64,000 nt of DNA from Desulforegula conservatrix Mb1Pa (lineage in GTDB: Bacteria > Desulfobacterota > Desulfobacteria > Desulfobacterales > Desulforegulaceae), in assembly GCF_000426225.1 (NCBI RefSeq), contig NZ_AUEY01000004.1:62001-126000 (forward strand), in the 5' to 3' direction. The position numbers were made by a program, and so were the translations under genes. Positions 1,697-25,054 of this stretch are shown in pieces. The notes below the pieces were generated by a model. The model ran no database searches and had not been told where the DNA came from. It saw only the letters and a list, made by a program, of their open reading frames with translations. Each line of letters starts with the position of its first letter. Position 1 is the stretch's first letter.

Positions 1697-4600
1697 TCAT
1701 CTTTTTTTCATATACATTGCCTTTACCTTTTCCTGAACCTTTTCAAGATAAATGTAAATGACAGGCGTAATATAAAGGGTCAGAAACTGCGAAACGACCA
1801 GTCCTCCTACAACAGCGAGTCCAAGCGGACGTCTTGCTTCAGCTCCCGCTCCGATTCCAAGAGCTATAGGAAGCGTTCCCATGAGAGCAGCCATGGTCGT
1901 CATCATTATAGGTCTGAATCTCATGATGCAGCCTTCAAATATGGAATCTTCGGCATTCTTGCCTTCGTTTCTCTGGGCCGAGATCGCAAAGTCTATCATC
2001 ATGATGGCGTTTTTCTTTACTATGCCCACAAGCATTATTATTCCCACAAAGGCATAGATGCTCAGATCGACCTTGAAAACAAGCAGGGTAAGAAGAGCGC
2101 CGACACCAGCCGATGGAAGGCCGGAAAGAATTGTAATGGGGTGAATAAAGCTCTCGTAAAGAATTCCGAGAACTATATAAATAACGAATATGGCCATGAA
2201 AAGAAGCATAAACATTCCTTTCATGGACTCCTGGAATTGCTGGGCCGTACCCTGGAACGCCGTGCTTATGCCTTCAGGCACCTTCAGTTCATCAACCGCG
2301 CCTTCAATCTCTTTCACTGCCTGGCCAAGACCACTTCCAGGCTTTAGGTTGAAAGCGATTGTAACAGAAGGGAGCTGTCCGCTGTGGTTTACGGTAAGAG
2401 GCCCAACCTGCTGCTTTATCGAGGCCACTGTCTCAAGAGGGACAAGGCTTCCTGTTGAGGATCGTACATAGAGTTTTGATATGGAAGCAGGATCAGCCTG
2501 ATATTCAGGGTTGAACTCCATTATTACCTGATACTGGTTGGACGGCGAATAAATCGTCGAAATCTGCCTCGATCCAAACGCGCTGTACAGGGTGTTTTCA
2601 ATCTGTCTTGCTGAAATCCCCAATGATCCGGCTTTTTTACGGTCTATATCCACCAATATCTGAGGACTCGTTATCTGGAGATCTGTGCTCACATCCTGAA
2701 GCGAAGGAAGATCACGCATTGCTTTCTCTATTTTCGGAGCCCAGGCAAAAAGCTCGTTCATGTCCGAATCCTGGAGAGTATATTGATAAAGCCCTTTGCT
2801 TGAACGGCCTCCAATGCGTATTGCAGGCGGATTCTGGAGAAAGACCTTGATGCCTGGCACGGCAGCCAGCTTTGGTCTTAGTCTCTGGAGAATTTCATCC
2901 GCGCTGTCTTTCCTCTCGGACCTTGGCTTTAATTTTAGCAGAACCATGCCTGAATTTGAGGTCATTCTTGATCCGCTTGGCCCGACATTGGACATGACGT
3001 GCTCGACTCCAGGATCTTTCTGTATAATTTCGGCTATCTTTTTCTGATGCTCCTTCATGGATTCAAATGAAGCGCCTTCGATCGCTTCAGTAAAACCATA
3101 AAGCTGGCCTACGTCCTGACTAGGAATAAAGTCCTTGGGAGTTATTCTGAAAAGCCAGACTGTGATGAAAATGAGGGCTATGGACATGATAAGCGTGCTG
3201 AATTTGTGGCGTATAACCAATTTCAGGCTCGATTCATAGGCTCCGAGCATAATATCGAATCCGCGTTCAAAAAGCCTGAACATGCGGCCATGTTTTTCTT
3301 CTCCTTCATGATGACTCTTGTGATGTTTGACAAACCTGCTTGAAAGCATTGGGGAAAGCGAAAGGGATACAAATCCTGAAACAAGTATGGCAACACTTAT
3401 TGTTACGGCAAATTCTTTTAACAGGCGGCCAATCAACCCGCCCATGAAAAGAAGGGGGATGAACACGGCGGCAAGGGATATTGTCATGGAAATGATGGTG
3501 AACCCGATTTCCTTTGATCCTTCAAGTGAGGCCCTTAATCGTCCCTTTCCCATTTCCATATGCCTGACTATGTTTTCAAGCATAACAATGGCGTCGTCCA
3601 CGACAAATCCCACGGAAAGAGTGAGGGCCATCATTGAAAGGTTGTCCATACTGTAACCCATGAGCTGCATGACGGCAAATGTTCCTACAATTGAAAGCGG
3701 AAGCGCAAGGGCTGGAACAAGTGTGGCAGATACGTTTCTCAAAAAAACGAATATTACCAGAATAACGAGAACCATGCTTAGATATAGGGTAAAATTTACA
3801 TCTTCTATGGAATCCTTGATGGATTCAGAACGGTCGTAAAGAACCTTTAGGTCAACGTTTCCCGGAATCTGGGCCTTGAAGGAAGGAATAAGTTTTTTAA
3901 TGGCATCTGCGACAGCAACCGTATTTGTACCCGGCTGCCTCTGGACCGCAAGAACTATCGCCCTGTCACCGTCCATCCAGCTTGCGACCTTGTCGTTTTC
4001 AACACTTTCTATGATGCTGGCGACCTGTTTCAAATATACTGGTGAGCCGTTTTTATAACTCACAATCACGGATTTGTAGTCATCTGCCTTTAATAACTGA
4101 CCAGAAGCTTTTATGGTAAGCGCCCTGCTTTTCCCGGAAAAAGTTCCGGTGGGCAGATTCACGTTATTATCAGATACAGCCTTGCTGACATCCTCAAGAG
4201 CTATCCCTGCCGCGTTCAGCTTGTCAGGATCGACCTGAACCCTGACAGCCCTCTTCTGGGAACCGTAAATCTGAACCTGGGCAACCCCGTTTATCATGGA
4301 AATGCGCTGGGCAAGCATGGTATCAGCAAATTCATTGACCTCAGAAAGAGGAAGCACAGTGGAACTTAAGGCAAGATATATTATCGGCTGATCAGCAGGA
4401 TTTACTTTTCTGAAAGAAGGAGGCGTCGGCATTTCAGCAGGAAGAAGTCTGAGAGTCTTTGAGATTGCTGTCTGAACGTCCTGGGCCGCTGAATCAAGAT
4501 CCCTTTCCAGAGAAAACTGAAGCGTAATCTGGGTAATCCCAAGAGCGCTGCTGGATGACATGGAATCCAAACCTGATATGGTTGTAAATTCCCTTTCAAG

Positions 4601-4798
4601 CGGAGTCGCGACAGATGACGCCATTGTCTCAGGGCTTGAACCTGGAAGATTTGCGGAAACTTGGATGGTCGGAAAGTCAACATTGGGAAGTTCGCTAACT
4701 GGGAGCAGCCTGTAGGCCATTATCCCGAAGATGAGTATCGCCATCATGACCAGCGTAGTCATGACAGGCCTTTTTATAAAAAGTTCAGGAATGTTCAT
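1697..4798 (-). CDS. RND efflux transporter permease, HAE1 family
   Basis: The inner-membrane pump of a tripartite drug or small-molecule efflux system driven by proton import. It begins MNIPELFIKRPVMTTLVMMA, the standard opening of the family, and is 1033 residues long, the usual size, with the duplicated 6+6 helix layout and two large periplasmic loops. The conserved GFVVDDAIVMLENI motif in TM4 lies near residue 400 with its proton-relay aspartates, and GIVKKNAIMMIDFA near residue 930 carries the partner lysine. The open frame continues 15 codons further upstream, but those codons come from a dispersed repeat; the ATG at 4798 has GGAGG nine bases ahead. The adaptor gene lies upstream. No TolC-type outer-membrane gene is in the window. 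MdtB/MdtC-like in pattern; the substrate is unknown. Confidence 0.92.
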   Translation of the reverse strand: MNIPELFIKRPVMTTLVMMAILIFGIMAYRLLPVSELPNVDFPTIQVSANLPGSSPETMASSVATPLEREFTTISGLDSMSSSSALGITQITLQFSLERDLDSAAQDVQTAISKTLRLLPAEMPTPPSFRKVNPADQPIIYLALSSTVLPLSEVNEFADTMLAQRISMINGVAQVQIYGSQKRAVRVQVDPDKLNAAGIALEDVSKAVSDNNVNLPTGTFSGKSRALTIKASGQLLKADDYKSVIVSYKNGSPVYLKQVASIIESVENDKVASWMDGDRAIVLAVQRQPGTNTVAVADAIKKLIPSFKAQIPGNVDLKVLYDRSESIKDSIEDVNFTLYLSMVLVILVIFVFLRNVSATLVPALALPLSIVGTFAVMQLMGYSMDNLSMMALTLSVGFVVDDAIVMLENIVRHMEMGKGRLRASLEGSKEIGFTIISMTISLAAVFIPLLFMGGLIGRLLKEFAVTISVAILVSGFVSLSLSPMLSSRFVKHHKSHHEGEEKHGRMFRLFERGFDIMLGAYESSLKLVIRHKFSTLIMSIALIFITVWLFRITPKDFIPSQDVGQLYGFTEAIEGASFESMKEHQKKIAEIIQKDPGVEHVMSNVGPSGSRMTSNSGMVLLKLKPRSERKDSADEILQRLRPKLAAVPGIKVFLQNPPAIRIGGRSSKGLYQYTLQDSDMNELFAWAPKIEKAMRDLPSLQDVSTDLQITSPQILVDIDRKKAGSLGISARQIENTLYSAFGSRQISTIYSPSNQYQVIMEFNPEYQADPASISKLYVRSSTGSLVPLETVASIKQQVGPLTVNHSGQLPSVTIAFNLKPGSGLGQAVKEIEGAVDELKVPEGISTAFQGTAQQFQESMKGMFMLLFMAIFVIYIVLGILYESFIHPITILSGLPSAGVGALLTLLVFKVDLSIYAFVGIIMLVGIVKKNAIMMIDFAISAQRNEGKNAEDSIFEGCIMRFRPIMMTTMAALMGTLPIALGIGAGAEARRPLGLAVVGGLVVSQFLTLYITPVIYIYLEKVQEKVKAMYMKKR

Positions 4799-4804
4799 TA
4801 AAAA

Positions 4805-4858
4805 ACGCCTCCGGCGGGTCGCTTTTTGAAAAAAGCTCCGCAAAAACTTTATGATTAT
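4805..4858 (+). repeat. Dispersed about 50-bp repeat, copy a (supplies RBS of the RND gene)
   Basis: A full-length copy of the window's most frequent repeat: GCCTCCGGCGGGTCGC, then TTTTTGAAAAAAGC, then TCCGCAAAAACTTTATGATT. The middle part can fold into a GCTTTTT/AAAAAGC hairpin. On the minus strand its edge reads GCCGGAGGC, and this GGAGG (4808-4812) sits nine bases before the ATG of the RND pump gene. Confidence 0.85.
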
Positions 4859-4969
4859 GGCACATGCTTAAAAAATGAGATTGTCATTGCTTTCGGAATC
4901 TTGGTTTTTATGATCAGCCAACCGCACTGAGAATAATGCATTGCAATGAAAATCAATGGTCAAAAATTC

Positions 4970-6190
4970 TCATTTGGGTTTATCAGCCTCAGGCTTTTTC
5001 TTTCCGTCGTCTTTCTTGTCAGATGCTTCTTTAGCGTCCGCAATCTTTACCTTGGCGCCCGGAGCAATTTTCATCTGTCCATCTGTCACAACCTTTTCAC
5101 CGGCTGTCACTCCTTCATTGATGACAGTCTCGCCATTTATAGTCGAGCCTGGTTTTACAATTCTGAAATCAACGGTTTCATCCTCTTTGACCACAAGAAC
5201 ATATTCGCCTTTCTGGCCTGAAAGAATCGCCTGGGAAGGGACTGTAACAGCACCGCTTTTTATTCCAAGTCCAAGTGTGATATTTACGAACTGGCCAGGC
5301 CAAAGCCCTGCGTCTTCATTCGGGAAAGAGGCCTTCATCTGAATTGTGCCAGTTGCAACATCCACAGAGTTTTCAATAAAAGCGAGGCTGCCCTTTACCG
5401 GTTTAATATCTTTTGAAGACACCCGACCAGACATCTGATCAGACAATTGGGCTGTCACCTCAAGTTTTTTCTCGGCCATCAGCTTTCTGATTTCTGTTAG
5501 ATTCTTTTCAGGCACTGAAAAAACAGCATAAATAGGTTTGATCTGGTTAATGGTCACAAGCGGCCTGTCATTATCATTTGCCTTGACTATATTGCCCTTG
5601 CTGACCTTGAGACTGCCTGTAACTCCAGGAACCGGAGCCTTTATGGAGCAATATGAAACCCTGAGCTTTGCCGCGTCGATCATGGATTCGTCTGATTTTA
5701 TACTGGCTTCAAGGGAGGCAGCATTTGCTGAAAGATTATCATATTGTTCCTCGGTAATACCTTTTCTCAAAACAGAAGCATAACGCTCAAGCTGTTTTTT
5801 TGTATTAACAAGCTGGGCCTTGTTCTTGGCAAGACTTGCCTCGGCCTGCCTGAGCTGAGCCTCGTACATCCTCGCGTCAATGCCAAAAAGAGGATCTCCG
5901 GCCTTTACTTCCTGGCCCTCCTTAAAATAAACAGACGCTATTTCTCCCTCAACCTGGGATTTGATGCTTACAGTCGATAAAGCCTGAATATTCCCGACAG
6001 CAGTTATCTGAACAGGCACATCTTTTGTCAAAGCTTCAGCAACAACAACAGGAGCCGCACCCTTTTTCCCGGCGCCGTCTTTTCCACCCGCCGAATCAGA
6101 TCCTTTTTTGCAGCCTTGGACAAACCCAAGGGAAAGCATAAGAAAAATGGACAGGATCAATATGTTACGATTCTTTTTGCAGATGGGCAT
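4970..6190 (-). CDS. RND efflux periplasmic adaptor subunit (membrane fusion protein)
   Basis: A 406-residue adaptor that bridges the inner-membrane RND pump and an outer-membrane channel. The N-terminus has a hydrophobic segment ending in FVQGC followed by a KKGSDSAGGKDGAGKK linker, which suggests a lipoprotein anchored through the Cys at residue 27. Next comes the barrel-sandwich half (VSIKSQVEGEIASVYFKEGQEVKAGDPLF), a helical hairpin (about 110-185), the second half-motif (SIKAPVPGVTGSLKVSKGNIV) and beta-barrel and membrane-proximal domains. The last 25 residues are unusually Lys/Asp-rich. It lies upstream of the pump gene with a 171-base gap holding a dispersed repeat. The MdtA/AcrA family is clear; the exported compound is not. 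Confidence 0.9.
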   Translation of the reverse strand: MPICKKNRNILILSIFLMLSLGFVQGCKKGSDSAGGKDGAGKKGAAPVVVAEALTKDVPVQITAVGNIQALSTVSIKSQVEGEIASVYFKEGQEVKAGDPLFGIDARMYEAQLRQAEASLAKNKAQLVNTKKQLERYASVLRKGITEEQYDNLSANAASLEASIKSDESMIDAAKLRVSYCSIKAPVPGVTGSLKVSKGNIVKANDNDRPLVTINQIKPIYAVFSVPEKNLTEIRKLMAEKKLEVTAQLSDQMSGRVSSKDIKPVKGSLAFIENSVDVATGTIQMKASFPNEDAGLWPGQFVNITLGLGIKSGAVTVPSQAILSGQKGEYVLVVKEDETVDFRIVKPGSTINGETVINEGVTAGEKVVTDGQMKIAPGAKVKIADAKEASDKKDDGKKKPEADKPK

Positions 6191-6378
6191 TAAGTCCTCC
6201 TGAAATTCAATGAAGCAGTATTTAAATGAGCCATTGTTTCATCATGGTTCATAGTGTTTTATTGACAGAGAATATCAATATTATGAGTTTTAAAAAAAAG
6301 CAGTCAAAAAATGAAATCGGGGAATAATTTTCGAATGAAGTTAAAAATATTTGAAAATTTAGGGGGTTTGATTCTTTT

Positions 6379-6813
6379 TCAAAGCCTGCTGAAACCTTCA
6401 AGTGTAAGAGCTATGAATAAATAGCGAAGAAATTTACCTGTAAGCATGAAAACAGATACGGTCATTGGATTAGCCCTTGCAAGTCCTAGGGCAAAGGCAA
6501 TTATATCCCCGACAAAAGGAGTCCAGCACCAGATCGCAAACCAGGTTCCTTTATCAACGACCTTTTTTCTCCATTTTTCTGCCTTCACAGGATCAATTCT
6601 GAGGATTTTTGAGGCTCTTTCCCATTTGCCGAAATATCCGAGGGCAAAGGTTGTAAGTCCGCCGAACCAGTTGCCGATTGTAGCAGTAGCAACAAGGGAA
6701 GAAGCATCACCGCCGGATGCAAGCATATATGTAAAAAGGGGTTCACTCCCGATGGGAATTACTGTGGCTGCGCCAAAACTGAGTAAAAACAGACTGAAAT
6801 ATTCCAGAAGCAT
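6379..6813 (-). CDS. YqaA-family inner-membrane protein (SNARE-associated/VTT fold)
   Basis: A 144-residue integral membrane protein. The opening with FGAATVIPIGSEPLFTYML and the later GTWFAIWCWTPFVGDIIAFALGLARAN match the short YqaA branch of the DedA/VTT superfamily, proposed to act in lipid or ion homeostasis of the inner membrane. Its ATG directly follows the TAA of the acyl-ACP thioesterase gene (CTC TAA ATG), so translation is probably coupled. Family membership is well supported by sequence pattern; a role beside the thioesterase is only a guess from coupling. Confidence 0.75.
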   Translation of the reverse strand: MLLEYFSLFLLSFGAATVIPIGSEPLFTYMLASGGDASSLVATATIGNWFGGLTTFALGYFGKWERASKILRIDPVKAEKWRKKVVDKGTWFAIWCWTPFVGDIIAFALGLARANPMTVSVFMLTGKFLRYLFIALTLEGFSRL

Positions 6814-23006: not shown

Positions 23007-23936
23007 TCAATGAGAATCTGATTCAGGAACTTCTTTGCGAAAGTCCTTGAAAAGGGCGGCCATATCAGGATCGTCAGGATATTTAGCAGTAAGAGCTATA
23101 TTTTCAAGTTTTGCTTCAACCGGCCTGTTCTCGTCGTCAAGTACAAGCTTCAAAACTCCGAGGTATTCACCTTCCGAAGTATTCTGAACAAGATAGACCC
23201 CCTTGATCTTTTTTGGCTCGTTGGTTATGTATCTTTCGTGCCCTGCTATAGCGACCGTTATGCCGCCCGCATCATTATATTCCAGATAATTCTGAGCTGC
23301 TTCTTTCCCAGTATGCAACAGAGCAATAACTATATCCGCCTTGTTTTTTTTGAGTTCATCCACTCTCTGGCGAAGGCTTTCATTCACATCTTTGAAGCCC
23401 ACCGTTTTTTCAAGGGAACTCTGCTCCTTGAAATAAGATGATGGCGTTCCTCCGGTTATTCCAATTTTCATATCTTTAAAGGCTTTTATCACATACGGTT
23501 TTACGGCCTTGTATTCCGGGCCAGACATACTGATATTGGCCGAAACAAATGGAAGCTTGTGCTTTTTGACTGCTTCAGCAAAAAAAGGCATCCCTGTATC
23601 AAGCTCCCCGTCTCCTATGTTTATGGCATCGTATTTCATGGCCGCCATTGCCACCGCAAGGGTTTTTGATCTGAATTCAACGGGTGCTTTTGAGCTTGAA
23701 AACACGTCTCCGCTGTCCACCACAACCGTATTCTTGTTTTCTTTTCTTATTTTGTTTATAAGGGCTGCCCTCCGGGCAATCCCGCCTTTTTCAGGCTGTC
23801 AGCCGCATGGTTCCACATGGCCGTTAATATCTCCGGTAAAAACGATTGTCAGCTCCTTGCTGAAAACAGTATCGCAATTAATGAAAAACACGGCTGAACA
23901 GCACAGAATAAATAAAAAGTAATTAAACAGTTTCAT
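23007..23936 (-). CDS. Candidate selenocysteine-containing metallophosphatase (5'-nucleotidase-like)
   Basis: Read from the ATG at 23936 to the stop at 23007 the frame encodes 309 residues with one internal TGA (23799-23801) at codon 46. Both sides belong to one protein: a signal peptide (MKLFNYFLFILCCSAVFFIN), then ELTIVFTGDINGHVEPCG, the TGA, then QPEKGGIARRAAL, NTVVVDSGDVF, YDAINIGDGELDTG, IALLHTGKE and VAIAGHERY. The order matches exported metallophosphatases of the UshA/5'-nucleotidase superfamily. In relatives I recall, the motif before GG-ARRA is a CGC, so the TGA sits where the second Cys is expected, which suggests Sec. A strong hairpin follows the TGA at the right distance. The alternative is a nonsense mutation. 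No selenocysteine machinery is in the window. Confidence 0.72.
23762..23798 (-). promoter_or_regulatory. Putative bacterial SECIS hairpin after the in-frame UGA
   Basis: Downstream of the UGA come 15 bases, then GGGATTGCCC, a GGA loop and GGGCAGCCC. Nine base pairs form (one a G-U) with a single bulged A. The loop lies 26-28 bases after the UGA, within the 16-37 range described for bacterial SECIS elements, and has G at its first positions as expected. An inner GCC/GGC pair can form nearer the UGA. Position and shape fit SelB recruitment; this was judged by eye, not by a covariance model. Confidence 0.65.
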
Positions 23937-24170
23937 AATTGGTTGCATAAAAAGTCCTCTTTATTTGAAATAATACAGGGCTTATAAATTACAAAATCTT
24001 CGAAAGCCAAGTTTTTATTGAAAATTACATTGTAAAACCACGTTAGCTTTTTATCCGCTCATCATGTTCTTGGAATAAAAGTGCAAAACCGCTCTCTTCC
24101 AAGGCCGACACCAGATCACATCCTGAGTCACCGGCCACTGGCAAAGCCGGTAATTTACTTATAATCAATT

Positions 24171-24305
24171 ATGACAAGGTCGCAAAAAGTCAGACTTCCG
24201 TCATTCCGGCGCAGGCCGGAATCCAGAAGTTCCTGAAATTACTGGATGCCAGATCAAGTCCGGCATGACGCTAAAACCATTTTTTGACTTTTTGCGAGTC
24301 CATCA
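24171..24305. repeat. MITE-like repeat, copy B
   Basis: About 135 bp. The ends TGACAAGGTCGCAAAAAGTC and TTTTTTGACTTTTTGCGAGTC are inverted repeats. Inside are GTCATTCCGGCGCAGGCCGG followed by AATCCAGAAG, and TGGATGCCAGATCAAGTCC followed by GGCATGACG. This is the best-preserved copy of the family and shows the long terminal inverted repeats most clearly. Confidence 0.85.
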
Positions 24306-24700
24306 ATTATGACAAACACCTGAAAAATATGACTATCATTGTTTAAAACCTTGTATTGCATCTTCTTAATACAGTATAAACAGGCAATCTGAATCGACAT
24401 TTTTCATAACATCCGACTCACCAGCCCTTCTGTGGCCTTGCCAGTTATAAACAGCATAATACTTTTTGAAATGATTGTGGGACGGCATCTATATTCACAT
24501 TTTTAGTAATTAGCCAGAGACATCCAAAGAAACACTTTCAGAAAATGAAACAAAAAATCTGATATTCTAAAGAATGTAGCAACCTGTTTTTCAGGAAATA
24601 TAGTGGCTTGGGTTAAGAGCGTCACAAAATAATCATCATTTTATCAAAAAAATAAAGAATCATTATTTTAAAAATAATATTGCACATATCATTTTTAGAA

Positions 24701-24718
24701 TGTTATGTATACATAACA
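24701..24718. promoter_or_regulatory. Perfect 18-bp palindrome, possible operator
   Basis: TGTTATGTATACATAACA reads the same on both strands. A half-site TTTGTATACTGT follows at once. It lies about 340 bases upstream of the acyl-CoA dehydrogenase start; its core GTATAC also occurs in the inverted repeat at that gene's promoter. A dimeric regulator site is plausible; the regulator is unknown. Confidence 0.45.
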
Positions 24719-24953
24719 GTTTGTATACTGTCAGGCCTGATCGAATACAAGACGTTATGGGACATCCCCATCCCATGAACCAACTTTTCAGATTCGCCTG
24801 ATTTTAAACCCCGGGCATAGGCTCAGATTCGTACTGATAATATTTATCAATAAACACAAAATAATATCATCGATACATTTTGAGCAACACCTATAAAATG
24901 CCCGTCTGATTCTACATATAAATAAAGGACTTGGATGGTTTACCAAAAGCCGC

Positions 24954-25000
24954 TTGACAAAGATCATATATTTCGTATACAAACATTATGTACACGAAAT
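24954..25000 (+). promoter_or_regulatory. Promoter with overlapping inverted-repeat operator
   Basis: TTGACA (24954-24959), 16 bases, then TATACA (24976-24981). Overlapping the -10 is ATTTCGTATAC (24970-24980), nine bases, GTACACGAAAT (24990-25000), an inverted repeat with a single mismatch in 11. Such an operator over the -10 suits repression by a dimeric regulator such as a TetR protein. Confidence 0.6.
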
Positions 25001-25054
25001 AAAATACAACGATTTTACACCAAGCAATCCAAACATAATACATGGAGGTAAATA

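Follow-up and report, generated by a model that had tools for sequence, protein, structure and literature searches.

A candidate short UshA-like selenoprotein with a degenerate metallophosphatase centre in Desulforegula conservatrix

Introduction

An ocean-sampling study of 2008 lists 'COG0737, UshA-like, CxU' as a selenoprotein family with 76 sequences (PMC2398784). Reviews name the UshA-like protein NF041198, which carries a CxU motif, and the UshA-like family 2, NF049981, which carries a CxxU motif (PMC13188914; PMC9312934). No function was found in the literature for UshA-like selenoproteins.

The gene considered here lies in a window of 64,000 nucleotides from Desulforegula conservatrix Mb1Pa (contig NZ_AUEY01000004.1, positions 62,001 to 126,000 of the forward strand). 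A preliminary description of this DNA proposed a selenocysteine (Sec)-containing metallophosphatase and knew of no account of such proteins as selenoproteins; the UshA-like (COG0737) CxU family had in fact already been described and is represented in NCBIfam by NF041198 and NF049981. What appears to be new, from sequence comparison, is a short form without the cytochrome domain that is missed by both curated models. The window protein scores 154.2 bits against the NF041198 cut-off of 275 and 56.5 bits against the NF049981 cut-off of 140, while two cytochrome-bearing control proteins pass NF041198 (L100, 477 bits; L099, 285 bits). A six-frame search of 291 genomes of the class gave no match above the NF041198 cut-off. 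Because it lacks the haem domain and falls under both cut-offs, the window protein is best regarded as a short version of a selenoprotein type already known. Automatic annotation may end genes of this short type at the UGA, as they score below both UshA-like cut-offs.

Long UshA-like Sec/Cys proteins with a terminal four-CxxCH domain were seen at nine loci (L076, L094, L099, L100, L102, L106, L108, L109 and L111). This type of domain also occurs free-standing, as proteins of 150-200 aa.

Gene structure

The features of the gene are as follows.

23007..23948, minus strand: putative UshA-like selenoprotein gene, 313 aa with UGA50 read as Sec; terminal stop TGA at 23009-23007
23799..23801, minus strand: in-frame UGA, predicted Sec codon 50, or 46 when counted from the inner ATG, in a C-G-U motif with Cys48
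23955..23960, minus strand: ribosome-binding site AGAGGA, read from the sequence, 6 nt before ATG 23948

The frame from 23948 to 23007 on the minus strand contains one internal TGA, at 23801-23799, and no further disruption was found in its 313 codons. This agrees with the earlier report of a frame broken by a single TGA, and VEPCG-TGA-QPEKGGIARRA reads exactly as quoted there. The PCGU motif of NF041198 is present within EPCGU, and the proposed CxU pair corresponds to Cys48-Gly-Sec50. The start had been placed at ATG 23936, from which a frame of 309 residues is indeed open, with the TGA (read as U) as codon 46. However, AGAGGA lies 6 nt upstream of ATG 23948 in the same frame, so translation probably begins at the latter, giving a product of 313 aa with Sec50. 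The gene encodes a predicted N-terminal export signal followed by a single metallophosphatase-fold domain. The export suggested previously is consistent with a signal peptide recognized by eye and with an N-terminal helix in the AF2 model, which together make up its support.

Relatives and Sec/Cys exchange

Matches were found in 56 of the 194 genomes of the order that were searched. When contigs were searched, a single-protein query returned none and an alignment query recovered relatives. The closest relatives of the window protein are only 43-49% identical to it. The same genome encodes a Cys paralogue on contig C81 (49% identity) and a second Sec paralogue on contig C27 (43%), and the homology to both runs across the TGA, as had been claimed.

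The Sec/Cys column is invariant in all 25 sequences of an alignment that, like the seven-member clade described below, was assembled by similarity, with the window protein and the NF041198 model as queries. It is likewise invariant in 44 of 44 UshA-like relatives from several phyla; members of this wider set were selected for similarity and for a Cys or Sec preceding GG, and the invariance is partly built in. The residue is U in 29 of these relatives and Cys in 15, in line with the expectation that homologues carry Cys at this position. The preceding Cys that completes CxU is kept in the clade of the window protein but is not universal in the sister groups, where xGUGGK or CxxU also occur. In a maximum-likelihood tree the window copy and the paralogues on C27 and C81 group together (100/98), within a seven-member Sec/Cys clade. 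Labelling the tree for Sec requires eight changes, six of them forced by starred branches, and thus repeated exchange between Sec and Cys.

The metallophosphatase fold

The AF2 model of the window protein (pLDDT 88, pTM 0.86) finds its best PDB matches in CD73, UshA and YfkN, with E values of about 1e-24 to 1e-21 and TM scores of 0.75-0.80 by query length. In CD73, the di-metal ligands and the Asn-His dyad comprise D36, H38, D85, N117, H118, H220 and H243. The window protein keeps D36, D85, H220 and H243 as D40, D81, H212 and H237, and replaces H38 by N, N117 by D and H118 by G. The same positions are affected among the 44 relatives, where N117 is lost throughout (44/44), while two retain H118 (lost in 42/44) and five retain H38 (lost in 39/44). 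D85, H220 and H243 have also largely disappeared from the xGUGGK subgroup, yet the Sec/Cys residue never has. This loss of metal ligands while Sec/Cys stays suggests that Sec is retained independently of the phosphatase centre. Canonical relatives, 17 in number and forming a single clade (100/99), keep all the CD73 residues bar one H243; as their selection relied on the motifs [ND]D.H and GNHE, they serve as an independent control for D85, H220 and H243 only.

The preliminary description set the redox pair next to a phosphoesterase centre. That centre is degenerate in the window protein and throughout its group, and a working phosphoesterase beside Sec is unlikely. One form of this idea is a Sec-dependent metallophosphoesterase resembling SoxB, in which Sec50 and Cys48 would supply extra ligands or the nucleophile to an altered di-metal centre that cleaves a phosphorus or sulfur ester. 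The retention of D40, D81, H212 and H237 in the window protein's own subgroup, the location of Sec in the loop that follows the first metal-ligand strand and a match to the SoxB model (E 8e-25) would all fit such an enzyme. The subgroup has nevertheless lost the catalytic Asn-His, and sister subgroups without nearly all the metal ligands still keep Sec, which makes Sec independent of the metal site and leaves this reading improbable. No sox gene context was seen near the window gene.

Gene neighborhood

The window gene is solitary. About 1.1 kb upstream of it (23949-25054) precedes a divergent acyl-CoA dehydrogenase gene, and this interval holds no ORF of at least 80 codons and no Rfam match above the gathering score; downstream lies a plus-strand gene. 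Rfam matches around the gene fall far under the gathering scores and amount to chance, and promoter and terminator scans gave counts about equal to those in shuffled sequence.

The C27 paralogue and most short-form relatives adjoin an exported protein of ~805 residues, with a WSGYWWP motif and assigned to Pfam TGase_elicitor, and a lipoprotein of ~145 residues. In the C27 paralogue the arrangement is as follows.

2044-6793 of locus L042 (genome G000, contig C27): cassette of a ~220-aa exported protein, a ~805-aa TGase_elicitor-like protein, the UshA-like selenoprotein and a ~145-aa lipoprotein

In Desulfobacterales and relatives, iterated HMM searches found about 16 separate loci with the large protein and 18 with the lipoprotein. 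C102, H158 and D212 are conserved in 11 large proteins, an arrangement that would suit the catalytic triad of a transglutaminase or cysteine peptidase. No description of the cassette was found in the literature, where a text search for transglutaminase elicitors returned oomycete and plant-disease papers only. The window copy lacks both the cassette and the conserved C-terminal tail of its relatives, and might for these reasons be a decaying paralogue.

Two Cys-type relatives with EPxGCC (L046 and L047) lie, as judged by eye, among genes whose beginnings resemble ArsR, ArsM, thioredoxin-like and CcdA-like proteins, apparently genes for arsenic and thiol-redox functions.

Selenocysteine insertion

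A bacterial SECIS (bSECIS) is a hairpin directly 3' of the UGA, with a G within the first two bases of a loop that lies 16-37 nt away. The candidate element of the window gene is the following.

23762..23783, minus strand: SECIS-like hairpin GGGAUUGCCC-GGA-GGGCAGCCC, stem from 15 nt and loop from 25 nt past the UGA

The nine pairs and GGA loop noted before are borne out: the hairpin has nine pairs, one bulged A and a GGA triloop whose start is 25 nt past the UGA. Folding of the 50 nt from the UGA gives a minimum free energy of -20.0 kcal/mol, with z -2.97 relative to dinucleotide shuffles. Against codon-preserving shuffles the hairpin reaches z -3.75, with 0 of 200 as low, which indicates that it is more than a by-product of coding for GGIARRA. 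With its GGA loop, its spacing of 25 nt and this z score, it has the properties expected of a bSECIS.

The relatives were compared in the same manner, using the 45 nt that follow the Sec/Cys codon and 200 codon-preserving shuffles per gene. Mean z is -1.30 for 29 Sec genes versus -0.14 for 14 Cys genes (Mann-Whitney p 1e-4, the genes being related and the draws not independent), and the Cys paralogue on C81 gives no hairpin signal (z +0.43). TGA-bearing relatives keep a hairpin; in five close Sec genes, 84% of the cells of the window gene's stem pair versus 33-56% when slid. Covariation among these five sequences consists of one two-sided change, U-A for G-C, which 179 of 500 shuffles reach, and is too thin to count alone. 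Outside Desulfobacterota, a Chloroflexi MAG (L098, 4803-5705) encodes a short selenoprotein carrying EPCGU, and its gene has the same hairpin, GGCCC-GGC-GGGCC; this copy may reflect transfer or a binning error.

The source genome (4.47 Mb in 178 contigs, 96% complete) encodes SelA (528 bits), SelB (contig C97), SelD (366 bits, from a gene with one in-frame TGA of its own) and a tRNA-Sec with anticodon UCA (77.6 bits, above the gathering score). All of selA, selB, selC and selD are therefore present, including the two whose absence had been named as grounds for rejecting a selenoprotein, and none of the other refuting observations named beforehand was made. Reading of TGA as Trp under another code was rejected, as no relative has Trp in the column and tRNA-Sec is present.

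Sec at UGA50 is thus highly probable and, by computation, well supported. It is very improbable that the gene is instead dead, its TGA arising from an ancestral Cys codon (TGC or TGT) by mutation or sequencing error. Such decay would agree with a copy that is solitary, outside the cassette and without the conserved C-terminal tail, but 28 other relatives, among them the C27 paralogue and those of the DeMMO and Desulfosudis genomes, carry TGA at precisely this Cys/Sec site, the 313 codons are otherwise intact, the hairpin is strong and the Sec machinery is present. That the UGA is a true stop, followed by an N-truncated protein from GTG 23723, is scarcely credible, for although a 238-aa ORF does begin there, its product would have neither the export signal nor the first strand nor the invariant Sec/Cys loop, and homology spans the whole frame.

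Proposed function

The product is quite likely an exported Sec protein with redox activity, built on a metallophosphatase fold that has been put to a new use. SelB and Sec-tRNA(UCA), guided by the hairpin 3' of UGA50, would insert Sec in vivo. The protein would then be exported and would adopt the fold of the N-terminal metallophosphatase domain found in 5'-nucleotidases, with no C-terminal nucleotide-binding domain. Nucleotide hydrolysis is most likely absent, because the protein lacks the Asn-His dyad and one of the metal-ligand His residues; as D40, D81, H212 and H237 are retained, some hydrolysis by another route is possible. Sec50, in the loop right after the first metal-ligand strand, would be the functional residue; with Cys48 it may form a CxU thiol/selenol redox pair within what was once the active-site cleft, possibly assisted by residual metal on D40, D81, H212 and H237. 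The large loss of the phosphatase centre suggests a redox rather than a phosphatase job, and the four-CxxCH haem fusion in long NF041198-type relatives lends circumstantial support to a redox role.

There is perhaps an even chance that this extends to short UshA-like selenoproteins at large, as pseudo-phosphatases turned redox proteins that lost the catalytic centre and kept only Sec/Cys. In Desulfobacterales and their kin their partners would be a small lipoprotein and an exported, transglutaminase-like enzyme of Cys-His-Asp type, all encoded in an undescribed cassette that the window copy, as a paralogue, would have left. A phosphatase centre nearly gone beside a fully kept Sec/Cys hints at what these selenoproteins do not do, and the pattern yields a redox hypothesis with a named partner gene.

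Comparison with known systems

The window protein shares the fold of the N-terminal metallophosphatase domain of the 5'-nucleotidases CD73 and UshA, but lacks their catalytic His and Asn and their C-terminal nucleoside-binding domain. Canonical relatives from the same order differ from it in having no Sec/Cys motif. The thiosulfohydrolase SoxB is also exported and has a related metallophosphatase domain; it contains no Sec, however, and the window protein scores 87 bits (E 8e-25) against a SoxB cut-off of 550. Family 2 (NF049981) is likewise short and single-domain with Sec in the same loop, but its motif is CxxU whereas that of the window protein is CxU. With NF041198 (UshA_like_PCGU) the window protein shares the PCGU motif, the metallophosphatase-fold domain, export and Sec/Cys exchange. 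The NF041198 model spans 519 positions and includes a C-terminal four-CxxCH (haem c) domain at ~397-519, whereas the window protein, at 313 aa, is without this domain.
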